Below are positions 18,358-29,785 of a stretch of DNA of 64,000 nt, one piece after another. A program made the translations under genes and the position numbers. Where the stretch lies: contig NC_014160.1 of NCBI RefSeq assembly GCF_000092185.1, positions 62,001-126,000 of the forward strand, given 5' to 3'. The stretch's first letter is position 1. Every line of letters begins with the position of its first letter. The stretch is from Thermosphaera aggregans DSM 11486 (GTDB taxonomy: Archaea > Thermoproteota > Thermoprotei_A > Sulfolobales > Desulfurococcaceae). Below the pieces are notes generated by a model. It saw only the letters and a list, made by a program, of their open reading frames with translations, was not told the DNA's origin and ran no database searches.

Positions 18358-18900
18358 TTACCTCTCCAAACTATGTTTAAAACCATATAAAAGCAAGGCT
18401 AACACAGTCTTCATATCCTTTAATACGTTATCCCTCACCATTGAGTATGCTTCTTCAAGGGTTATTGTGAAAGGCTCAATAATCTCGTACTTCTCCGGTT
18501 TCGCGCCCACGTATCTGAGGTTTTTCGCAACGTAAAAGAACATTTTCTCGGTGCTATACCCCGGGGTAGGGTAGAACTCTCCCATCAGTGTTAACTCGCC
18601 GGGGATATAACCTACCTCCTCTTCCAGCTCCCTCCTGGCAGCCTCCTCGGGGGATTCACCATCATCTACGACTCCGGCAGGGATCTCTATTATATAGTCC
18701 TCTATTGATGGGCGAAATTGTTTTATCAGGATGATTCTCTCATTATCGATGAATGGTAGGATAACTACTGCTTCAGGGAACAGTACAACGTCTCTTCGGA
18801 AAACATCTCCCTCCTTTTTCGCGTAACTTCTCCTGACAACCTGGAATCTCAAACCCTTAAACAGCAACTCCTCGCCGGTTTTAACAGGCTTCAAAACCAT
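18358..18900 (-). CDS. Nudix hydrolase, ADP-ribose pyrophosphatase-like
   Basis: Probably hydrolyses ADP-ribose or a related nucleoside diphosphate sugar to AMP plus a sugar phosphate. The Nudix box is complete: GVVDDGESPEEAARRELEEE followed by VGYIPGEL (about residues 76-102), and GEFYPTPGYSTEKMFFYVA matches the ADP-ribose-type subgroup. Length is 180 residues. The ATG at 18900 (or GTG at 18903) sits close to the expected transcription start from a TATA box at 18929-18938, suggesting a leaderless message. The first of two Nudix genes here (the other at 26390). Confidence 0.9.
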   Translation of the reverse strand: MVLKPVKTGEELLFKGLRFQVVRRSYAKKEGDVFRRDVVLFPEAVVILPFIDNERIILIKQFRPSIEDYIIEIPAGVVDDGESPEEAARRELEEEVGYIPGELTLMGEFYPTPGYSTEKMFFYVAKNLRYVGAKPEKYEIIEPFTITLEEAYSMVRDNVLKDMKTVLALLLYGFKHSLER

Positions 18901-18928
18901 CACGCACTGTTTTATTTACTGCTGAAAG

Positions 18929-18938
18929 AATATATAAG
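18929..18938 (-). promoter_or_regulatory. TATA box between Nudix and endonuclease IV genes
   Basis: AATATATAAG lies between two divergent genes. On the minus strand it is about 26 bases upstream of the predicted start of the Nudix gene. The plus-strand gene probably uses a separate box near 18909-18917, giving a short leader with AGGTGGGA. Confidence 0.45.
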
Positions 18939-18951
18939 CAAAGGTGGGAGA

Positions 18952-19818
18952 GTGCCCCACTACCGCTATGGCCCTGCAGGCAAGCCTATAACGATGAAGT
19001 CTTCAGACCTGTTGAAAGCCCCAACCTTTCTCAGGGAAATGGGTTTGAGCGCCATGGAGTATGAGGCCGTTAGAGGCGTGAATATTAAGGAGGAAAAAGC
19101 CCGGGCTTTCGGCGAGGAAGCCAGGAGCAACAACGTTATACTCAGTCTCCACGCACCATACTTCATTAATCTCGCAGGTAAGAAGTCAACCATCGAAGCC
19201 AGTATCCAGAGGTTGAACGAATCAGTGACCGCGGCGCACTGGATGGGGGCTTACGTGGTGGTTTTCCATCCAGGATACTACAAGGATGCGCCCTCCCGCC
19301 GAGAGGCTGTTAGAAAAGTGATAGAAAGCCTTAAGCAAGTGGTAGAGTATAGGAGTGGGATTGGTGCTCAGGAAGTATGGTTAGGCCCTGAGACGACTGG
19401 GAGGACATCCCAGGTCGGGGAACTTGATGAAACAATACTCATAGCGCAGAGCTTGGATAAGGTTAGACCAGTAGTCGATTTCGCCCACCTATATGCAAGA
19501 CATTCTGGCAGGTTTATCACTAAGATAGACGATGTTTTGAAAGTCATTGAGAAGATAGAGTCGTCGCTCGGGACTGAGGTGTTGAAGCCTCTGCACATAC
19601 ACTTCTCCAAGATCGAGTTCGGTAAGGGCGGAGAGAGGGAGCATCACACGCTTGATGAAGATAAGTATGGTCCGGATTTCAAAATAGTCTGCAAGGGTCT
19701 TTGCGAAACCGGGGTTGACGCAGTAATTATTAGCGAGAGCCCTGTTCTAGAGCAGGATGCTTTAAAAATGAAGGCGCAGTGCTTAGAAGTATGCGGTGAG
19801 AAATGCATTGTTGACTAA
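18952..19818 (+). CDS. nfo: Endonuclease IV-like AP endonuclease (TIM barrel)
   Basis: Likely cuts DNA at abasic sites in base-excision repair. It is 288 residues with the xylose-isomerase-like barrel and metal ligands in the family order: LHAPYF (His, near 64), FHPGYY (His), GPETTG (Glu), VDFAHLYAR (Asp and His), LHIHFS (His) and ISESP (Glu). The start is GTG at 18952 with AAGGTGGGA just upstream. The C terminus has three Cys (QCLEVCGEKC), unusual for the family. It overlaps the downstream phospholipid synthase gene and lies near HerA-NurA. Confidence 0.9.
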   Translation: MPHYRYGPAGKPITMKSSDLLKAPTFLREMGLSAMEYEAVRGVNIKEEKARAFGEEARSNNVILSLHAPYFINLAGKKSTIEASIQRLNESVTAAHWMGAYVVVFHPGYYKDAPSRREAVRKVIESLKQVVEYRSGIGAQEVWLGPETTGRTSQVGELDETILIAQSLDKVRPVVDFAHLYARHSGRFITKIDDVLKVIEKIESSLGTEVLKPLHIHFSKIEFGKGGEREHHTLDEDKYGPDFKIVCKGLCETGVDAVIISESPVLEQDALKMKAQCLEVCGEKCIVD

Positions 19819-20392
19819 TCTCCGGAAAAGGATTGAAGGCTTAACAAGCCTCATTGCCAAACCCTTCTGCAGGCTTGGAGTGCACCCCAATTGGATAACC
19901 CTTTCATCAACAATGGTTTTAATAACAGGCCTGCTCCTGCTTATGGCTAACAAGCCCCTTTGGGTTTTCATCGTAGTAATAATCCTGTCAGGAATCCTGG
20001 ACGCGTTGGATGGCGCCGTCGCCAGGAATTGTGGTAAAACCTCACTGCTCGGTAGCTTCCTTGATTCAACTATTGACAGGGTTAACGACTTCATAATAAT
20101 CGCCTCACTGTTCGCAGTAGGCTTCGACGAGTTTATCGTTCTCGCATTGATGAGCGCCGCATTTCTAACCAGCTATGTGAGAGCTAAGGCAGAGTCGCTG
20201 GGTTTAAGGGTGGAGGGGGTGGGTATTGTTGAGAGAGCTGAGAGAATACTGCTTGTGACGCTAGTTTTAATCACTAGTTCTTGGGACAGGTTCACCGCTA
20301 GCATTATCCTCTACGCGTTGCTCGCTCTCTCCGCCCTTACCGTGGTTCAGAGAATATTCTATGTTGCGAAATCCCTGAGTAGGAGGCTCTAG
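19808..20392 (+). CDS. CDP-alcohol phosphatidyltransferase, likely archaetidylinositol phosphate synthase
   Basis: A membrane enzyme that joins a CDP-activated archaeal lipid to an alcohol phosphate. The catalytic signature D-x2-DG-x2-AR-...-G-x3-D-x3-D is complete in LDALDGAVAR and GSFLDSTIDR (about residues 60-88), and there are five to six membrane helices. Archaeal members of this length (194 residues) are mostly inositol-phosphate synthases; exact substrate is inferred. I place the start at TTG 19808, seven bases after GGTGAG; GTG at 19796 is an alternative. Its 3' end overlaps the convergent HerA gene by 126 bases. Confidence 0.88.
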   Translation: MLTNLRKRIEGLTSLIAKPFCRLGVHPNWITLSSTMVLITGLLLLMANKPLWVFIVVIILSGILDALDGAVARNCGKTSLLGSFLDSTIDRVNDFIIIASLFAVGFDEFIVLALMSAAFLTSYVRAKAESLGLRVEGVGIVERAERILLVTLVLITSSWDRFTASIILYALLALSALTVVQRIFYVAKSLSRRL

Positions 20393-22414
20393 TGCTGAGA
20401 GGTCATAGTGCCCGGCCAGCGGTAGAGTTGTTTTAAATGTAACATAGCCGAGCCTCAGCACATGGCTTTTCAAAACCGCTACTCTATCACTCATTCTCAC
20501 CACGATTTCACGGTACTCTTGAGGGAGGTCTAGGAGGCCTATGTGACTTTTATCCGTTCTTAAAATAATTTTCGTGTTAGCTAATTGAAGAATAATGTCG
20601 TGAACATCCCTTGGGCTGTGAGTGCTGAAGACTATGCCTAACTTCCTGGATCTTCCAAGCCGGGCGATCCTGTCAATCATTGATGAAACGTGCTCAACAT
20701 AATCCTCTACCCCTGACTTGCTGGGGAAGAAGCGGTGGGCCTCATCCATGATTATTATGACGGGTTTAGACTCCATTTTCCCTCTGGCCTGTTGTAGCTT
20801 CCATTCGAAAATCTTGTTAAGGATTCTGAACGCTATTATGCTTAGGATTTTCTCAGGATCAGCAATTGAGTGTTGAAGAGGATATTCGAGGTCGACGATA
20901 ATGGGATATCCGTTAAACCATTCAAAATGCTTATCCAGGATCAATTCCAGCGGCGGCTCCTGCAAATATTTCTCCCCGCTCTGCGTGCTGATCGCGATGT
21001 CGAAGAACCCTGTGTCAATAATTGAGCCCACCTGCCTTAGAATGTTTTCGAGAGTGCTCTTGTGTATGGCTATCTCCCTCACAAGCTCTATCAAGTGTTC
21101 CCTATTAGGGTCTAGGATGACTCCTCTAGGAGCTTTCTCCCTCTCCATTAGCCTAGCCCGGGCGTCTCTCAGGGCGTCATATATGTCGTATACTGTTTCA
21201 ATTTTCAACCCGATCTCGTACATGTATCGCAGGAGCCTTGTTAACGAATCCTTGGCCTGCCTGGTGAAGTAAGGATTGAGCGAGATGAACTCTCTCGGGG
21301 TGAAATCCGTGAACCTGAAAGCGTAGGGGACAATGATGTATTCTGCCTCCTCCTTTCTACCCTTGTAGTCGATAATGGCTGAGAGTTTGACATATCTTAG
21401 AGGGAACTTGACGCCAGGTTGCTCGACAACGTCAACGTCTCCGACTTCGTAGCGGAAGCCGAATCGGTTAGAAATAGGCTCTACTATGTCTGTAAAGTAT
21501 TCGAGGGCTATGTTCCTAAGTACTTTAGCCCATGTCGATCCATCCTCAACGTGTTTGTTGACAACATATTTTGTTACGGGCAAGAATACTAAGATTCCGC
21601 GGGGATGTTTGACTTTGCCGACCAATCTTTCTAGTAATTTCTTCTCCCCATTGACAAGGTTTTCATCTACAGTCCATGGAGGCTCCAAGTTCAGCGTCAA
21701 GTAATCACGATTAGGGTCGATTATAACTATTGAAGCGTCCTCAGGAGTGTTGAATTTTGAGGAGAGGGATGAAACCATGTTTTTAATCAAGGTGGTTTTA
21801 CCGCTTCCTGTTGTGCCCACCACTAGTAAGTGTTGATAGAAGGCCTTCAACGGGAGATAAAGCTCTGCGTTGCCTTCGAACAAAACCTTGTCCCCGACCG
21901 TGACATAGCCTAGGAAGACTCCTTTCGTCGGCAGCCCGAGTATTTTCTGTATAGCCCGAGTATCCTCTAGCTTTATCACGGGGCTTTGCGGCTCAATCAC
22001 GTAGTCGGCTGAAATAACGGTGTCGGTGAAAACATCGTAAGATAGCAATGGTTTAGCCTTAATCCTGGTCTTAGTGAGCAGTCCCGTGACTTCCGTTGTC
22101 GGAATAGCGACAAACATTTCCGGCATGTCAAGTTCCGCGAGAACGTCACGTCTTTCCACTGCGGCTATTTTAAGGCTTACTAGCTGAAGGGTTTTCAAAT
22201 CGACAACGGCTAGGTAGCCGCCTGCTGAAGCAATATCCATGAATTCGTTAAAGTATATCACAGGGTCTACTTCGAAATATACAAAACCCCCTTCTTCATC
22301 AATCCGGGAGGGGCTAGTCCTGGAGACAAAACCGATTATCCTCCCATATCTCTTAGCGATTTCAACAGCGGTTGTCAGCTTCTTTTCAAGGGATTTCACA
22401 AAATCCGTGTTCAA
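20267..22414 (-). CDS. HerA-family DNA translocase/helicase
   Basis: A hexameric FtsK/HerA-type ATPase predicted to pump DNA for end resection with its NurA nuclease partner, encoded just upstream. It is 715 residues, longer than typical HerA (about 500-600). The N-terminal 150 residues fit a HAS-barrel; Walker A GTTGSGKTT is at 200-208 and Walker B VIIIMDEAHRFFP near 550, with the IARLGRSRKLG sensor/arginine region after it. The last 40 residues, past LSALEPPT, are low in hydrophobics and are read antisense to the lipid synthase gene. Start TTG at 22414 follows GGTGCTCGA. Confidence 0.88.
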   Translation of the reverse strand: MNTDFVKSLEKKLTTAVEIAKRYGRIIGFVSRTSPSRIDEEGGFVYFEVDPVIYFNEFMDIASAGGYLAVVDLKTLQLVSLKIAAVERRDVLAELDMPEMFVAIPTTEVTGLLTKTRIKAKPLLSYDVFTDTVISADYVIEPQSPVIKLEDTRAIQKILGLPTKGVFLGYVTVGDKVLFEGNAELYLPLKAFYQHLLVVGTTGSGKTTLIKNMVSSLSSKFNTPEDASIVIIDPNRDYLTLNLEPPWTVDENLVNGEKKLLERLVGKVKHPRGILVFLPVTKYVVNKHVEDGSTWAKVLRNIALEYFTDIVEPISNRFGFRYEVGDVDVVEQPGVKFPLRYVKLSAIIDYKGRKEEAEYIIVPYAFRFTDFTPREFISLNPYFTRQAKDSLTRLLRYMYEIGLKIETVYDIYDALRDARARLMEREKAPRGVILDPNREHLIELVREIAIHKSTLENILRQVGSIIDTGFFDIAISTQSGEKYLQEPPLELILDKHFEWFNGYPIIVDLEYPLQHSIADPEKILSIIAFRILNKIFEWKLQQARGKMESKPVIIIMDEAHRFFPSKSGVEDYVEHVSSMIDRIARLGRSRKLGIVFSTHSPRDVHDIILQLANTKIILRTDKSHIGLLDLPQEYREIVVRMSDRVAVLKSHVLRLGYVTFKTTLPLAGHYDLSALEPPTQGFRNIEYSLNHGKGGESEQRVEDNASGEPVPRTSD

Positions 22415-22449: not shown

Positions 22450-23634
22450 TTAAATAGTTAAGTATTGGTGGAAACCCGATTTATCGAGACCCATAGAGAA
22501 GACCAGATATTCCGTGAGAATGCTTGAAATCCTTCTCGCCCTACGATCAGCAATGATGATGGAAACGGGCAGTAGGGAGCCTATGTTTAAGCTATCGTAA
22601 GCAACTGGTTTCAAAACAGTCTCGTCAACCAAGTCGCCGAGGACTTCAACCCTGTAGTGAGTATAAAGGGTTAGGGAGGTCCTAGAGGAGTATAGTCGCC
22701 TTGGGATTCCAACATACCATGCAATACGATCAACCCTTGACGAACTCGAGAGAGTTGTCCGGATTCTTAAAGGCCCTAAAAAATAGGGTCGGAGGCCTTC
22801 TCCTGCCGCAACGCTCCTCGATAATACTGACAAGTATGCCTCATCATTAATGTCTGAAACACCCAGTCCCAAGGGGTCGCACATGCTTAAATAATAGCTT
22901 CTATACAGCCTCTTCACAATGCCTATCGCTAACGTGTTCCTATTGCGGAGGCTTCTCCATAGTGCATGCCTGTCCTCATTTATCGCTTCCAAGCTACTCT
23001 TGTAAACATCAAATCTTGCTGAGTAAGGCGTTGAAACCTCTATTGTCGATGGATAAAGTAATGGGCCGTCGACGAGGAGGATAGAGTCTTCAAGCAAACC
23101 GTCCTCGAGGCTTTTTGAAACCAGGTATGACTCAGTTAAAAGTCTGGTTTCCTCGAGCAAAACATACTTGTTATACTCATGATCATATCTGATCCCAACG
23201 GGATTCTCAGTATATAGGAAACTCTTCAATCTATCATCGAACTCAAACCCTATGGGGGCTTGAAAGTTAGGAATAACGGTTAAAAACCTGCAGGCTTCCA
23301 TGGCGGCTCCCGTGATGAAACTTATCGGTGGACAGTCCAAGGCTTTACCGGTAAACCTGCTCAATAAGCTTCCCGTGGTGACCGATATGAACACGTAGGG
23401 GGTTTCAACCACTCTAGAGCTACTGTCAACGGCGTAGATGTTGAAGTAAAGGCTTTCTTTGACAAGCGAGTTATCGAAGTATTTAAGAGCCTTCCCATGC
23501 TCTGCGAGGAGTTCCACGTCACTGCTTTTCTCAACGGCTTCGGCAAGCCTCCTGGAATCCTCATCGTTTAAAGGCTTCCACTGTGCTGAAGCATAACTCC
23601 TAATCTTTTCGACTAGGTCTTCTAATATAGTCAA
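22450..23634 (-). CDS. nurA: NurA-family 5'-3' nuclease
   Basis: The nuclease partner of HerA; in archaea the pair works with Mre11-Rad50 in double-strand break resection. It is 394 residues. NurA motifs are present: IYAVDSSSRVVETPYVFI near residue 67 (first catalytic Asp) and ILLVDGPLLYP near 185 (second Asp), with SIIIADRRAR near the C terminus. The start is TTG at 23634. It lies 35 bases before herA and is divergent from the DHH gene. No mre11 or rad50 gene lies in the window. Confidence 0.85.
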   Translation of the reverse strand: MTILEDLVEKIRSYASAQWKPLNDEDSRRLAEAVEKSSDVELLAEHGKALKYFDNSLVKESLYFNIYAVDSSSRVVETPYVFISVTTGSLLSRFTGKALDCPPISFITGAAMEACRFLTVIPNFQAPIGFEFDDRLKSFLYTENPVGIRYDHEYNKYVLLEETRLLTESYLVSKSLEDGLLEDSILLVDGPLLYPSTIEVSTPYSARFDVYKSSLEAINEDRHALWRSLRNRNTLAIGIVKRLYRSYYLSMCDPLGLGVSDINDEAYLSVLSRSVAAGEGLRPYFLGPLRIRTTLSSSSRVDRIAWYVGIPRRLYSSRTSLTLYTHYRVEVLGDLVDETVLKPVAYDSLNIGSLLPVSIIIADRRARRISSILTEYLVFSMGLDKSGFHQYLTI

Positions 23635-23710: not shown

Positions 23711-24727
23711 TTGAGCAAGGTTTGCAGGATATTGGCAGCAGGGGATTGGGATGCTGATGGAATAGTTGCAACCGCTCTTATAACTTATTCGCAAGAGAAG
23801 CTGGGTAAGTATCCTTTAGAGTGTCAGGCTGTTGTTGACAAGACCCCGGTTGACCCAGATAGGGTAAAATACCTCTTGTCAAATCTACCCGGGAACTATG
23901 ACCTAGTGGTTTTTCTCGATCTACCGTTCAACGATACTATTAGGAATATTTGCATAATGTTGAGGGAGCACTTTGGGGTCAAGAAAATCATGTATGTAGA
24001 CCACCACATCACTAGTGTTCAAAGAATCAAGGAGATAGAGGCTATCGCGGACACCGTGCTAGTGGATTATAGGAGCCCTACATCAACCCTGGTTTACAAG
24101 GAGTTGGTGAGCAAGGGGGTATCAATTCATCAGCGTTTGAAAAGCTTCGTGGAAGTTGTCGAGTACATGGATACGGGTAAAAGAGTGCCAAGCAACTACA
24201 TAAAGCTTTTCGAGTTGACAAAGATGTTTTCGAAAGCTTTAACCGTTGAGAGAGATGAGAAGCTCTGGGTCAAGATTATAGATTGGCTCGCATCCCCAGC
24301 GCCGCTCCCAATGCCGCTTGACGAGAAGCTCTGGGAGAAAGTTAAGACTAGTATTGAGCAAAGAGATAAGGAGATTAGCGATAAAGCTGTTGAACTAGCT
24401 GTCACAGCAGTGAAAATCGGCGATTTAAGGTTTGTAGACGCGAGGAATGCTTGGAAGAAGAGAGGTGTCACAGCTCTAGCATCAAGGGTTTCATCCATCC
24501 TTAAATCACCAGTGGCCCTGCTTGCTAACACCAACAGAGATTACTCCCTACTGGTCTTGAAGGCATCGAATGGTAGGGCGTACAGGATTGCGAAGTTCCT
24601 CGTCGGGGAGGGCGTGGCGCTAGATATCGCGGGCCACCCCAACTTGGCAATAGTCCGTGTTCCTAAAAACATCAATAAGGATGAGTTGATACAGTACTTG
24701 TACAAAGGGGTTTACTACGCCTCATAG
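23711..24727 (+). CDS. DHH-family phosphoesterase, divergent
   Basis: A 338-residue member of the DHH superfamily: AAGDWDADGIVATA (motif I, residues about 9-22), LVVFLDLPF (motif II) and YVDHHIT (motif III) keep the metal-binding Asp/His set. The C-terminal substrate domain is atypical: where DHHA1 has GGGH it shows DIAGHPNLAIVRV. An insert with MDTGKRVPSN precedes it. Candidate substrates are short nucleic-acid ends or nucleotides. The start is TTG at 23711 after GGTGGT. Its stop overlaps the next gene by one base (TAGTG), the first link of a tight five-gene run opposite NurA-HerA. Confidence 0.85.
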   Translation: MSKVCRILAAGDWDADGIVATALITYSQEKLGKYPLECQAVVDKTPVDPDRVKYLLSNLPGNYDLVVFLDLPFNDTIRNICIMLREHFGVKKIMYVDHHITSVQRIKEIEAIADTVLVDYRSPTSTLVYKELVSKGVSIHQRLKSFVEVVEYMDTGKRVPSNYIKLFELTKMFSKALTVERDEKLWVKIIDWLASPAPLPMPLDEKLWEKVKTSIEQRDKEISDKAVELAVTAVKIGDLRFVDARNAWKKRGVTALASRVSSILKSPVALLANTNRDYSLLVLKASNGRAYRIAKFLVGEGVALDIAGHPNLAIVRVPKNINKDELIQYLYKGVYYAS

Positions 24728-25824
24728 TGTGGGAAAGGGTATTTCATCAACCAGGTTTTTCGAATATTTCTCAGCCGTCTGGGTGGGTTATCCTGGCGAG
24801 AATTATTGTTGAGAAGCAGTCGATGACTAAGCATGTGCCGTTAGAGAAGCATCCGGAGAACCCTGGACGCATCAAGGTTCTAGTAGACAGACTAGACAAG
24901 CAAGGTTTTAGAGTGGAATATGTTTCACGAAACGTGGACGTTCAAGAAGCCCAGAAAATTGCTTCTCGAATTCATGCGAGAGGTTATATTCAATACCTGG
25001 AGAAACTTTCAAGATACAACTACTCAATAGTCGATGAAGACACGTATTTAACAATAGACTCAATGGAGCTGGCTTACACGACTTTTCAAACAAGCTATGA
25101 GCTAGCGTTAAGCCTAAATGAACCAGTCTTCTATGTTTCAAGGCCCCCGGGACACCACGCTGGGAGGGGTGGAAAAGCGATGAGGGCTCCTTCGCAGGGC
25201 TTCTGCCTACTCAACAATGCTGGCGCAACTGTTCTCGGCTTCAAGGATAGAGGGCTCACTAGGATTGCTATAATAGATTTCGACGTCCACCATGGTAACG
25301 GGACGATGGAGATTTTCTATGATGAAAAAATCCTCCAGGTAGATCTGCACCAACACCCTGACACGCTGTATCCTTACACAGGCTACCCCTTCGAAATAGG
25401 TGAAGGGGAGGGGTATGGGTTTAAGGCAAACCTGGTTTTCAACCCTTTCACAGGCGATGACGTATACTTGAGGGTTTTAAGCATGGTTCAGGAGCTACTC
25501 GAAGGGTTTAATCCCGAGGCCCTCGTCGTTTCCGCCGGCTTCGACGGATTCCTCAACGATGGATTATCCGATCTAAGACTGACAGAAGCTTCGTATGAGG
25601 CCTTGGGGAGGCTTATAAGGGGGCTCGAGGCCCCCACACTTATAATTCTTGAGGGAGGCTACAGCGTGGGTTTAACAAGAGGGGTTGAGTCGTTTCTCAA
25701 TGGTTTAACCGGGCGCGAGGTCAACTACGCGGCTTCCAAAACCCTTAGGGCAACGGAGGTTGAAGAAATCGTGAGAATTAATGAGAAAACTATTTTAAAA
25801 ATTAGGAAAAAAGCAATTGGGTAA
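24727..25824 (+). CDS. Histone deacetylase-like amidohydrolase
   Basis: A zinc-dependent deacetylase of the class II HDAC/acetylpolyamine amidohydrolase superfamily, 365 residues. Active-site segments are intact: RPPGHHAGR (general bases), IDFDVHHGNGT (zinc Asp/His), SAGFDGFLND (zinc Asp) and ILEGGYS. Crenarchaea mostly lack histones, so acetylated chromatin proteins such as Alba, or polyamines, are more likely substrates. The GTG at 24727 is used because it alone covers the first strand (LARIIVEKQ); the first 20 residues may not be homologous. It is coupled to the DHH gene before it. Confidence 0.88.
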   Translation: MWERVFHQPGFSNISQPSGWVILARIIVEKQSMTKHVPLEKHPENPGRIKVLVDRLDKQGFRVEYVSRNVDVQEAQKIASRIHARGYIQYLEKLSRYNYSIVDEDTYLTIDSMELAYTTFQTSYELALSLNEPVFYVSRPPGHHAGRGGKAMRAPSQGFCLLNNAGATVLGFKDRGLTRIAIIDFDVHHGNGTMEIFYDEKILQVDLHQHPDTLYPYTGYPFEIGEGEGYGFKANLVFNPFTGDDVYLRVLSMVQELLEGFNPEALVVSAGFDGFLNDGLSDLRLTEASYEALGRLIRGLEAPTLIILEGGYSVGLTRGVESFLNGLTGREVNYAASKTLRATEVEEIVRINEKTILKIRKKAIG

Positions 25825-25835
25825 GGGAGGTTGGA

Positions 25836-26393
25836 TTGGAGAGGGAGGTAAAGTTTAAAGTAACCATGGATCCTTCTTCCTTGGAAGAGGAGCTTTTCCA
25901 AGACGGATTTGAGAGAATTGCAACTTGTCTAGAGGAAGACATATATTTTGACACACCTGGAAAGTTTTTATCAACCACTGATCAAGCCTTAAGGCTCAGG
26001 AGGAGAAAGTGTGATGGAATGGTTAGCGTTAGGCTGGCTTACAAGGGACCCCGTCTTACAGGCGTAGGGGATGTGGTGAAGGCTCGTGAGGAGATCGAGC
26101 TAGAGGTTAAGCCCGAGGAGCATGCTCAAGCCGTGAACCTCTTACGGAGGCTCGGGTATATCGATAATTGGAGGCTGTTTAAGAAGAGGGTATTGTTCGT
26201 CAAGAAAGGGTTGGAGATCTCGATAGACTACTTCGAGCCGCTGGGGGTTTACCTCGAGATTGAGGTTAAGAATGAGGAAGCGATGGTGGAGTTTAAAAGA
26301 CTTGTAGAGAAATACTCTAAAATCTTCCCCGTGATAGGGGAGACGTATCTTGAAATGTACGTAAAACACTTTGAAGGGAAAGGAAGGGTATGA
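25836..26393 (+). CDS. CYTH-domain protein (class IV cyclase/thiamine-triphosphatase fold)
   Basis: A 185-residue triphosphate-tunnel protein. The N-terminal EREVKF gives the E-x-E-x-K metal/phosphate motif at residues 2-6; TDQALRLRRR supplies the basic tunnel residues, and GVYLEIEVK the later acidic strand. Such proteins hydrolyse or cyclise nucleoside or inorganic triphosphates. Which one cannot be told. The TTG start at 25836 follows GGGAGG. It sits 11 bases after the deacetylase gene and overlaps the following Nudix gene by four bases (ATGA). Confidence 0.87.
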   Translation: MEREVKFKVTMDPSSLEEELFQDGFERIATCLEEDIYFDTPGKFLSTTDQALRLRRRKCDGMVSVRLAYKGPRLTGVGDVVKAREEIELEVKPEEHAQAVNLLRRLGYIDNWRLFKKRVLFVKKGLEISIDYFEPLGVYLEIEVKNEEAMVEFKRLVEKYSKIFPVIGETYLEMYVKHFEGKGRV

Positions 26394-26854
26394 GTTTGCT
26401 AATTCCATCGGTTGGTGGGATACTGGTTGAGGGGAAAAGTGTTTTACTTGTCAAGAGGAAGAATCCGCCCTGTAGAGGTTTCTGGAGTATTCCGGGTGGT
26501 AGGCAGAAGCCTGGTGAGACGGCTTTTCAGGCTATTGTAAGAGAGATGTTGGAGGAAACAGGGGTCTTGGTTGAGCCCATTGGGGTTTTTGGAGTAATCG
26601 AGTTAATCCCTAAGGAATCGGGTAAAGCCCATTACGTCATCGTTGAATTCGTTCTTCGCAGGGTTTCAGGGTCATTAAGAGCTGGTTCAGACGCCGAGGA
26701 TGCCCGGTTCTTCTCGATGGACCAGTTGCCCGAGAATACTGGGCTGGCTACTCGTGAAATAGTTAGTGAATTATTAAAATCTGGTGGTGGCTTCTTAAAT
26801 AACTGTTGCAGGTATAGGGTGTTTGAAATTGAGCATTTATGTGAAGCCGATTGA
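26390..26854 (+). CDS. Nudix hydrolase
   Basis: A 154-residue Nudix protein likely to cleave a nucleoside diphosphate linked to another group. The box reads GGRQKPGETAFQAIVREMLE then ETGV (about 34-57), and RGFWSIPGGR precedes it in the style of the MutT/ADP-ribose group. The C terminus after residue 130 (GGGFLNNCCRYRVF) is Cys-bearing and overlaps the next gene by 32 bases. The ATG overlaps the CYTH stop. Substrate not determinable; the combination with CYTH next door hints at nucleotide clean-up. Confidence 0.9.
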   Translation: MSLLIPSVGGILVEGKSVLLVKRKNPPCRGFWSIPGGRQKPGETAFQAIVREMLEETGVLVEPIGVFGVIELIPKESGKAHYVIVEFVLRRVSGSLRAGSDAEDARFFSMDQLPENTGLATREIVSELLKSGGGFLNNCCRYRVFEIEHLCEAD

Positions 26855-27458
26855 GAGGATTACTCCAGTCCTGTATGAAAAGTATGTTAAGGAAGAGCTT
26901 CACAGGCTCGAGGAGCTGAAGAATCCTAAGATTATTTACGTTACAGACCTGGTCGGGTGTAGTCATAAATACTACTTGAGGCGCTTGTACCCCGAGCTAA
27001 CAATTAAGTTCGAGCCCTCCGCAATACTCGGCAACCTGGTTCATGCCGGCATTGAGGCCTTGCTTAAGGAGAAGGGTTTCGAAGTCGAGGTAGAGGTTTC
27101 GGCAGAGGTGGAGGTTAACGGTGATAAGTACAGTGTTAAGGGGAGAGTGGATGCTTTGAAAAAGGATGAGGGATTAGTTGTCGAGGTTAAGACAGCACGT
27201 TACGCTCAGGATATTCCAAGAGAACATCATTTAAACCAATTGAAAATATATCTCGAAATGCTGAACCTTGAAAACGGGTTAATCATATACATCACGCCGG
27301 ATAAGATACACGAGTTTCAGATCAAGAGAGATAGGATAAACCTCGAATCACTCGTTAAAACACTCGTAGAGGATACTGCCCATCCAAGGTATGAGTGGGA
27401 GTGCAACTACTGCATGTTCAAGAAACTATGCCCGTATGCTGTGGAAAGATCTGATTAA
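26823..27458 (+). CDS. Cas4-like PD-(D/E)XK nuclease with 4Fe-4S cluster motif
   Basis: A 211-residue RecB-family nuclease. The nuclease core shows GNLVHAGIEALL, KGRVDAL (Asp), LVVEVKTA (E-x-K) and QLKIYLEML (motif Q-x3-Y). An N-terminal Cys (VGCSHKYYLRR) and a C-terminal trio (CNYCMFKKLC) form the four-Cys iron-sulfur site of Cas4/Dna2/AddB. No CRISPR array or other cas gene lies in the window, so this is a solo Cas4-like protein, probably for DNA-end trimming. The start is TTG at 26823 (or 26829). It overlaps the Nudix gene and ends the run. Confidence 0.85.
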   Translation: MKLSIYVKPIERITPVLYEKYVKEELHRLEELKNPKIIYVTDLVGCSHKYYLRRLYPELTIKFEPSAILGNLVHAGIEALLKEKGFEVEVEVSAEVEVNGDKYSVKGRVDALKKDEGLVVEVKTARYAQDIPREHHLNQLKIYLEMLNLENGLIIYITPDKIHEFQIKRDRINLESLVKTLVEDTAHPRYEWECNYCMFKKLCPYAVERSD

Positions 27459-28629: not shown

Positions 28630-29439
28630 TTAAACATGCTTCCTGATGACCCTTAGCTTTTCAAGAGTTCGCGTATTAAGCATTCTCGAAGCATCACCCT
28701 GGTTTAAAGCGATCTCGAAGAAACCCCATGAGTTGATGTAGCATGCTCCCTCCCCAACGCCAACGTCGCCGAAGGTGTTAACCATTGTGCACTCTAATTT
28801 ATTGTTCAACCCTTCAACAACCAACTTATCGTTCCTACGTATCCCAAGGGATTCAACTACCTCTACGCCAGCGTTCAGCGAAATATTCCCGAAAACGTCC
28901 ACGCTTAAAACAGTGGCTTCAAACCAACCTCCTTCAACGTTTACGTAGGGTTCCTCAATCTGGAGCTTAGCAATAGCTTCGCTTGGCAGCGGCGTTCCAA
29001 CCCGCTCTAAAGGCACACCCTTGCTCACCCATGCCGCAACCGGGGCGAAGACGTCTCTTCCATGGAATGTGCTGGAAACTTTCGGAAGCCTGTAAGGCGA
29101 GTTCGATATATCGAATACTTTTAAAACCCCGTCCTTAAAGGCGAGTAGTGATAAAACCCCATTGTCAGGCCCTATAAGGATGTAATTCCTGGTTTGGATC
29201 AACAAGGCCCTTCTCCCCGTCCCCACTCCCGGATCGACCACGGTCACGAAAATCGTGCCGCTGGGGAAGTATTCAGCTGATACGAGAAGGTTGAAGGCGG
29301 CCTCAAGGATACTGTGCCTTGCCACCCCGTGAGTTAAATCGATTATTTCGGCGTCAGGGTTGATGGTTTTAATAACCCCCTTCATCACCCCGACATAGGG
29401 GTCTTTGTAACCGAAATCTGTTTGCAGAACAATTAACAT
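28630..29439 (-). CDS. SAM hydroxide adenosyltransferase (DUF62 family)
   Basis: Splits S-adenosylmethionine with water-derived hydroxide into adenosine and methionine; the family also holds the bacterial fluorinase and chlorinase. It is 269 residues. Diagnostic segments are QTDFGYKDPYVGVMKG at the N terminus, VDPGVGTGRRALLIQT near 67 and STFHGRDVFAPVAAW near 122, keeping the Asp-Arg-His set of the hydrolases rather than halogenases. A C-terminal beta domain follows (DVFGNISLN). The ATG at 29439 is clear. It stands alone between the PsiE-like gene and tRNA-Ile. Confidence 0.92.
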   Translation of the reverse strand: MLIVLQTDFGYKDPYVGVMKGVIKTINPDAEIIDLTHGVARHSILEAAFNLLVSAEYFPSGTIFVTVVDPGVGTGRRALLIQTRNYILIGPDNGVLSLLAFKDGVLKVFDISNSPYRLPKVSSTFHGRDVFAPVAAWVSKGVPLERVGTPLPSEAIAKLQIEEPYVNVEGGWFEATVLSVDVFGNISLNAGVEVVESLGIRRNDKLVVEGLNNKLECTMVNTFGDVGVGEGACYINSWGFFEIALNQGDASRMLNTRTLEKLRVIRKHV

Positions 29440-29661
29440 GATGCCACGCTCAAACTTATTTTACGGTTAACACAGTATTAAATCATGGCCGGGGATGTAT
29501 ACGATGGGCGGGCTGAGCTGTGATGACCCATTGTAGCTTAATAACCCGGCTGTGAATTCTTTATTAAGACCTTACTACTTACTGTTTATCAGTGCCCGAT
29601 GAAATGCAGCGGATAAGCAGAGGAGTGATGAAGAAAAATATTGAGGGCTAACTCATTAAGG

Positions 29662-29669
29662 TTTAAATA
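29662..29669 (+). promoter_or_regulatory. TATA box of tRNA-Ile
   Basis: TTTAAATA begins 38 bases before the tRNA. The same TTTAAA core precedes the other two tRNAs of the window at similar distance, supporting it as an archaeal TATA box. Confidence 0.6.
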
Positions 29670-29699
29670 CTGTTGAAAAGGTTTGAATAATCTTTGAAT

Positions 29700-29773
29700 G
29701 GGCCCGTAGCTCAGCTTGGTGGAGCGCCCGGCTGATAACCGGGAGGCCCGGGGTTCGAATCCCCGCGGGCCCA
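29700..29773 (+). tRNA. tRNA-Ile (anticodon GAU), no intron
   Basis: A complete 74-base cloverleaf. The acceptor GGGCCCG pairs with CGGGCCC, D-stem GCTC with GAGC, anticodon stem CCCGG with CCGGG, and T-stem CGGGG with CCCCG around TTCGAAT. The anticodon loop CTGATAA gives anticodon GAT, reading Ile AUC/AUU. The discriminator is A. The CCA tail is not encoded and would be added by the CCA enzyme at 56214. Confidence 0.97.
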
Positions 29774-29785
29774 TATTCTTCAATC

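Follow-up and report, generated by a model that had tools for sequence, protein, structure and literature searches.

Five consecutive genes of the archaeon Thermosphaera aggregans DSM 11486 encode, in this order, a DHH-family phosphoesterase, an HDAC-type zinc deacylase, a CYTH-family triphosphate tunnel metalloenzyme (TTM), a Nudix hydrolase and a Cas4-like nuclease. They lie in the window, by which we mean the whole 64,000-nucleotide stretch that was analysed (positions 62001-126000 of the complete 1,316,595-bp genome). The stable core of this operon is HDAC-CYTH-(Nudix)-solo-Cas4, the order of which is conserved in the family Desulfurococcaceae. We consider the chances evenly balanced that the five genes constitute a genome-maintenance operon (DNA-end processing plus housecleaning) that is specific to this family and built from individually widespread enzymes. 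It is a new gene arrangement of known parts and not a new kind of system.

Identity of the five genes and their junctions

The five open reading frames (ORFs) listed in the original prediction, which was made from the letters of the window, are in the places it gave (Table 1), and its family names are clear for HDAC, CYTH, Nudix and Cas4, with the DHH protein lying near the Pfam cut-off. Catalytic positions are invariant in alignments over relatives for all five families, which indicates that the genes are under selection and are not chance ORFs. The predicted junctions of -1, +11, -4 and -32 bases were recovered between the longest ORFs, but the first of them, a TAGTG overlap between DHH and HDAC, is probably spurious. 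Most aligned relatives lack anything that corresponds to the first ~22 residues of the HDAC ORF, and a CTG at 24793 in the window is a TTG at the same place in one congener, so that the HDAC gene probably starts at this CTG, 66 bases downstream of the longest-ORF start. The DNA of the 5′ stretch is poorly kept in two congeners, and a GGTGG motif stands ahead of the window CTG. With this start, the gap between DHH and HDAC is likely ~65 bases. The claim that the genes form one operon stands, as spacing and conservation make a single transcription unit very probable. A TATA-like block ahead of the DHH gene (Table 1), which has the same letters in three congeners, is the likely TATA element. A sigma-70 and terminator scan of the locus, a method not meant for archaea, was uninformative.

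The Cas4-like protein scores 82.6 bits against Cas4 model TIGR00372 (cut-off 65). Residues C46, D110, E121, K123, Q139, C194, C197 and C203, which cover the nuclease motifs and four iron-sulfur (Fe-S) cysteines, are invariant in the 20 rows of its alignment. The closest solved protein is SSO0001 (PDB 4ic1) with an E-value of 4.8e-41, while the Cas4 Pcal_0546 reaches only 7e-6. SSO0001 contains an Fe-S cluster and acts as a 5′-3′ exonuclease on single-stranded DNA (ssDNA) (PMC3466216; papers are cited here by PubMed Central number and from excerpts). The single Cas1 found in the genome, at C1:770211, is 681 kb from the Cas4-like gene at C1:88823 (cas2 was not searched), and we therefore call the protein a solo-Cas4. 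Solo-Cas4 proteins are said to be passed on mainly by vertical descent in archaea and to be functionally uncharacterised (excerpts of PMC5704561). A CRISPR adaptation role was rejected, there being no cas1 within 680 kb. Viral relatives of the protein (21 records) are all below 60% identity.

The CYTH protein gives a CYTH match of 62 bits and scores 73.4 with the cyaB model (cut-off 57.95). Its ExExK and downstream acidic motifs (E2, E4, K6, E86, E141 and E143) are invariant in 18 rows. The best solved relatives of the family profile are Saci_0718 (SaTTM; E 5.3e-44) and PH1819. According to the excerpts of PMC8233210, SaTTM prefers inorganic triphosphate and forms no cyclic nucleotides. By these similarities the window protein resembles the Sulfolobus inorganic triphosphatase and not a cyclase, and an adenylate cyclase identity was rejected, despite the cyaB match, since among the nearest solved archaeal relatives is a triphosphatase that lacks cyclase activity. 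As a separate observation, the CYTH gene in a genome of group f11 (L023:3067-4402) overlaps a gene for an S-adenosylmethionine (SAM) hydroxide adenosyltransferase, a relative of which is found at 28630-29439 of the window.

A Hist_deacetyl match of 211.6 bits identifies the HDAC ORF, and its zinc ligands and catalytic Tyr (D186, H188, D273 and Y312) are invariant in 22 rows. HDAC6-type and polyamine enzymes receive similar profile scores. By eye, the position aligned with the polyamine gatekeeper Glu of HDAC10 is a Leu in this protein, as in HDAC6. We also observed that one single-contig genome (G006, group f7) has one in-frame TGA each in its HDAC relative (C1:1170708-1171754) and its CYTH relative (C1:609824-610369). 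The Nudix protein matches its family with 72.5 bits and has a complete Nudix box (GX5EX7REUXEEXGU).

The DHH protein has a Pfam match of 27.6 bits in the protein scan (cut-off 28.1) and of 29.3 bits, above the cut-off, in the genome scan. Its metal motifs are intact, with D12, D14, D16, D70, D97, H98 and H99 invariant in 25 rows. The predicted model (mean predicted local distance difference test score, pLDDT, of 90.9) aligns over its whole length with Pyrococcus furiosus RecJ at Z 22.4 and a root-mean-square deviation of 3.9 Å over 305 residues; it likewise aligns over its full length with RecJ-Cdc45 (Z 21.5) and PAP phosphatase (Z 19.6). Foldseek by itself could not tell RecJ apart from PAP phosphatase and related enzymes. 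DHHA1 scores 14.8 bits against a cut-off of 25.9; its fold is present, and its GGGH-type motif reads AGHP or GGH. Because the protein reaches only 20.6 bits with the RecJ equivalog model TIGR00644, which demands 396.9, we call it RecJ-like and not RecJ. Two more DHH proteins are encoded in the same genome.

Linkage and order of assembly

Each of the five proteins was searched in 59 genomes of the order, comprising seven of the window's family and 52 others, and matches were obtained in 42 (DHH), 50 (HDAC), 54 (CYTH), 57 (Nudix) and 48 (Cas4-like) of them. The counts of pairs within 10 kb take no account of low-scoring secondary Nudix matches, of the faintest Cas4 matches (those with E above 1e-11) or of two fragments of HDAC in one genome (G005). 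DHH, HDAC, CYTH and Cas4 genes are mutually within 10 kb in 7/7 family genomes, so that the case which the original prediction named as refuting it, namely that the families never co-occur in relatives, did not arise. A Nudix gene also lies within 10 kb in two of the six family genomes that have a Nudix match. Since each pair is found within 10 kb only 0-2 times in the other 52 genomes, we consider the linkage a trait of the family and not of the order, although some linkages may be missed in the 29 outside genomes with >10 contigs (23 have 10 or fewer).

For the family itself, 40 genomes were searched with the DHH protein, and all 38 matching loci, including the window, were mapped with a greedy ORF caller and no gene finder. 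Of 29 loci that can be scored for HDAC>CYTH, 28 have this order. For CYTH>(Nudix)>Cas4 the ORF caller gives 26 of 27, and the count becomes 28/28 after re-reading of two loci with tblastn, which found Cas4 in the one exception and in one contig-edge locus. Right of Cas4, gene order is kept in only 2/24 loci, and we therefore place the end of the unit at Cas4. Around DHH loci outside the family (n=23: L018-L022, L163-L179 and L182), CYTH and Cas4 were found in none, HDAC beside DHH in one and a HerA match in one. DHH-type genes ~5 kb from a solo-Cas4 in four loci of Sulfolobales metagenome-assembled genomes (MAGs; L109, L116, L121 and L122) were discarded as members of another DHH subfamily (31-46 bits).

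The DHH gene stands directly ahead of HDAC in 23/37 family loci, and the loci with this arrangement fall in one 24-row clade of the DHH tree with a support of 93/93. On the basal branches other genes intervene, often on the opposite strand (PAPS-reductase-like, A-type ATP synthase D subunit and RsmB-like methyltransferase genes). With respect to the slot between CYTH and Cas4, the window genus is nested in a clade otherwise without a Nudix gene there, and in the gene tree its Nudix groups with four f11 sequences (support 98/90), apart from the main operon Nudix clade of 14 rows. Taken together, these two results suggest that the Nudix gene was lost and then re-acquired in the same slot in the window genus. 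One clade of operon Nudix sequences is compatible with the approximately unbiased (AU) test (p 0.187 for all 19 rows and 0.173 for 17 rows). The notion of five fixed genes is weakened, as DHH and Nudix both vary among the family loci.

Surroundings of the operon

A diverged NurA-like and HerA-like pair is transcribed divergently from the DHH gene (Table 1). Of the 34 family loci that could be scored, 29 have NurA no more than three genes upstream of DHH; in genera g2 and g42 the locus is without the pair. The genome encodes two more NurA proteins, and its canonical Mre11-Rad50-NurA-HerA operon lies elsewhere (L180; its Mre11 and Rad50 were assigned by eye on their size and sequence). RecJ of Deinococcus makes contact with HerA, and NurA opposes the stimulation (excerpts of PMC4663267), which makes a neighbourhood of DHH and HerA-NurA mechanistically sensible. 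CRISPR-linked nurA-herA genes are described for Pyrobaculum in excerpts of PMC3396285. One Thermoprotei MAG (L142:2-10593) has canonical NurA and HerA, a DHH orthologue (360 bits), a solo-Cas4 and, on the other strand, an HDAC within 11 kb; these genes are separated by unrelated ones, and the stretch also holds DUF1152, SAM decarboxylase and archease. Such a neighbourhood is rare beyond the family, as only one of the 23 DHH loci there has a HerA match.

Table 1. Coordinates of the operon and of neighbouring features in the window
Feature	Position	Strand	Remarks
DHH-family phosphoesterase	23711..24727	+	start TTG; 338 aa; RecJ/Cdc45/NrnA-type fold; metal-site motifs intact
HDAC-type zinc deacylase, longest ORF	24727..25824	+	start GTG; likely true start CTG at 24793
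CYTH / triphosphate tunnel metalloenzyme	25836..26393	+	start TTG; ExExK motif intact
Nudix hydrolase, MutT-like	26390..26854	+	start ATG; full Nudix box
Solo-Cas4-like PD-(D/E)XK nuclease	26823..27458	+	start TTG; four invariant Cys
Probable operon TATA element, ACATATAAAAA	23652..23662	+	11-base TATA-like block between NurA-like and DHH genes; putative promoter
Diverged NurA-like nuclease	22450..23634	-	divergent from DHH gene
Diverged HerA-like helicase	20267..22414	-	partner of NurA-like gene
Archaetidylinositol phosphate synthase-like CDP-alcohol phosphotransferase	19796..20392	+	directly upstream of DHH in genus g2
Endonuclease IV-like (AP_endonuc_2) protein	18952..19818	+	heads same string in two of three g2 loci

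To the left of the HerA-NurA pair (18358-20392) are a divergent gene for an ADP-ribose-type Nudix, the endonuclease IV-like gene and the archaetidylinositol phosphate synthase-like gene. In several genera two genes for membrane-protein-like products (~250 and ~165 aa) stand between NurA and DHH. They are missing in the window; such pairs occur at L013:12096-13385 (no Pfam match) and in L036, L043, L044, L046, L047, L049 and L052-L054. A 64-aa ORF at 29589-29783 spans a tRNA-Ile gene (29699-29774) on the opposite strand and is unlikely to be a true gene.

Function, competing explanations and known systems

As part of a genome-maintenance operon, the Cas4-like enzyme would trim 5′ single-stranded DNA ends by analogy with SSO0001, and the DHH enzyme would degrade ssDNA or short oligonucleotides beside the HerA-NurA-like end-resection pair, as RecJ does with HerA in Deinococcus. 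Nucleotides that are damaged or in excess would be hydrolysed by the Nudix enzyme and inorganic triphosphate by the CYTH enzyme, and acyl groups would be stripped from lysine or polyamines by the HDAC-type enzyme. The analysis shows what the genes are, that their catalytic sites are intact, that their order is kept and in which order they came together; we infer these substrates, co-transcription of the genes and a shared physiological setting, rather than a shared substrate, for the five activities. The endonuclease IV-like gene and a second Nudix gene near the operon support this assignment by location, as do the HerA-NurA-like pair beside DHH and the L142 stretch. As for the HDAC and CYTH enzymes, we can only infer that they have a part in DNA processing.

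Several results weigh against the maintenance operon. The DHH gene is a later addition at the front of HDAC-CYTH-(Nudix)-Cas4, and the Nudix slot is filled in 11 of 28 scorable family loci and empty in 17. Outside the family, genes are within 10 kb in 1/27 genomes for DHH-HDAC, 0/38 for HDAC-CYTH, 0/31 for CYTH-Cas4, 1/29 for HDAC-Cas4 and 2/44 for CYTH-Nudix, with no pair exceeding two, so that no shared step needs the genes together. Nearby pairs for which no such claim is made are equally well kept (endonuclease IV-like>lipid synthase in 19/19 loci and HerA-NurA in 26/26), as is an unrelated downstream pair (9/9), which means that the conservation is not unusual for the area. One CYTH gene of the family set (G009, L012:7564-8229) has an in-frame stop near its start, due to either a broken gene or a sequencing error. 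To our knowledge, neither an HDAC nor an inorganic triphosphatase has an established place in DNA repair.

A strong rival is plain co-location, that is, unrelated housekeeping genes gathered by genome compaction in one family, with a common expression level and no common function. The lack of linkage outside the family, the coming and going of DHH and Nudix within it and the equal conservation of ordinary pairs all fit, and in genus g2 heterogeneous neighbours such as the lipid synthase stand in the same string. Co-location accounts less readily for a core order that outlasts both the right-border rearrangements and upstream insertions, and for the apparent entry of a different Nudix into the vacated slot between CYTH and Cas4; we regard it as possible, at clearly less than even probability. 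The original prediction had instead seen in the five genes a candidate for a dedicated system, in which a nucleotide or protein signal might be made and erased together with DNA-end processing. Such a pathway, with HDAC, CYTH and Nudix making and erasing a modified nucleotide or acyl mark that controls the action of the Cas4 and DHH nucleases, would agree with the strict HDAC-CYTH-Cas4 adjacency inside the family and with the apparent return of a Nudix to the same slot (the 98/90 grouping with f11). However, the set has no synthesising enzyme, each gene is found alone in dozens of genomes, and one shared origin of the operon Nudix genes withstands the AU test (p 0.17-0.19). We found nothing beyond adjacency for the signal and think the pathway very unlikely. 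The idea of a dedicated system is likewise not supported, in view of the 52 outside genomes, the late arrival of DHH, the absence of Nudix from most family loci and the equally conserved ordinary pairs, and it is housekeeping that is suggested by the closest solved relatives, an inorganic triphosphatase and a solo-Cas4 exonuclease.

We give almost no credence to the idea that Cas4 is the centre of a module for defence or CRISPR adaptation. Although the Cas4 family match, the existence of virus Cas4-like relatives and the finding that DPANN solo-Cas4 genes can adjoin restriction-modification genes (excerpts of PMC5704561) would suit it, the only Cas1 found is far off. Defence models hit chiefly Cas4, HerA/NurA and a generic Nudix candidate, with no hit to DHH, HDAC or CYTH, and a defence island would not be expected to be kept by vertical descent across a whole family. 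In the excerpts of a 2026 survey of archaeal immunity, Cas4 appears only among the references (PMC12988326). Full-text searching for papers naming these families together gave no title on such an operon, in keeping with the original prediction, which knew of no described pathway joining an HDAC-type deacetylase and a triphosphate-tunnel enzyme with a Cas4-like nuclease. What had been called the strongest candidate for an undescribed system is an arrangement that we did not find described, whereas its parts are known.

A bolder reading is a DNA-end-processing complex, confined to Desulfurococcaceae, in which the HDAC-type and TTM enzymes control or supply the solo-Cas4 exonuclease and a RecJ-like nuclease that works with the diverged HerA-NurA pair. 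We believe this to be unlikely; if it were true, the apparent refilling of the slot by a Nudix gene would mean that the nucleotide hydrolase is a required component. Solo-Cas4 is widespread in archaea, and the operon offers it a concrete and testable context of DNA-end processing apart from CRISPR. If the enzymes cooperate, archaeal HDAC-type and TTM enzymes, so far largely without a functional setting, would gain one.

The HDAC-type protein shares a complete zinc site and catalytic Tyr with class II HDACs and acetylpolyamine amidohydrolases. The CYTH protein is like SaTTM, the archaeal CYTH inorganic triphosphatase and its best solved match, in its ExExK and downstream acidic motifs, but its gene adjoins HDAC and is near Cas4, whereas outside the family CYTH is unlinked to either. 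Likewise, the Cas4-like protein has near whole-length similarity to the Cas4-family exonuclease SSO0001 of Sulfolobus solfataricus, with the four conserved Cys and the D/ExK nuclease residues; what differs is the position of its gene, which shares an operon with the HDAC and CYTH genes and is distant from cas1. The DHH protein has the fold and metal-site residues of archaeal RecJ and RecJ-Cdc45 (GAN), but is shorter than RecJ and altered in its DHHA1 motif. Excerpts of PMC3307487 describe the Desulfurococcales as lacking the usual active archaeal RecJ and as having an inactivated arCOG00432 member in a ribosomal neighbourhood with S15, S3 and Pcc1; the DHH protein of the window has intact metal motifs. 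Finally, the presence of a DHH gene near HerA- and NurA-like genes recalls the RecJ-HerA-NurA set of Deinococcus, with the difference that the HerA/NurA pair of the window is a diverged paralogue.

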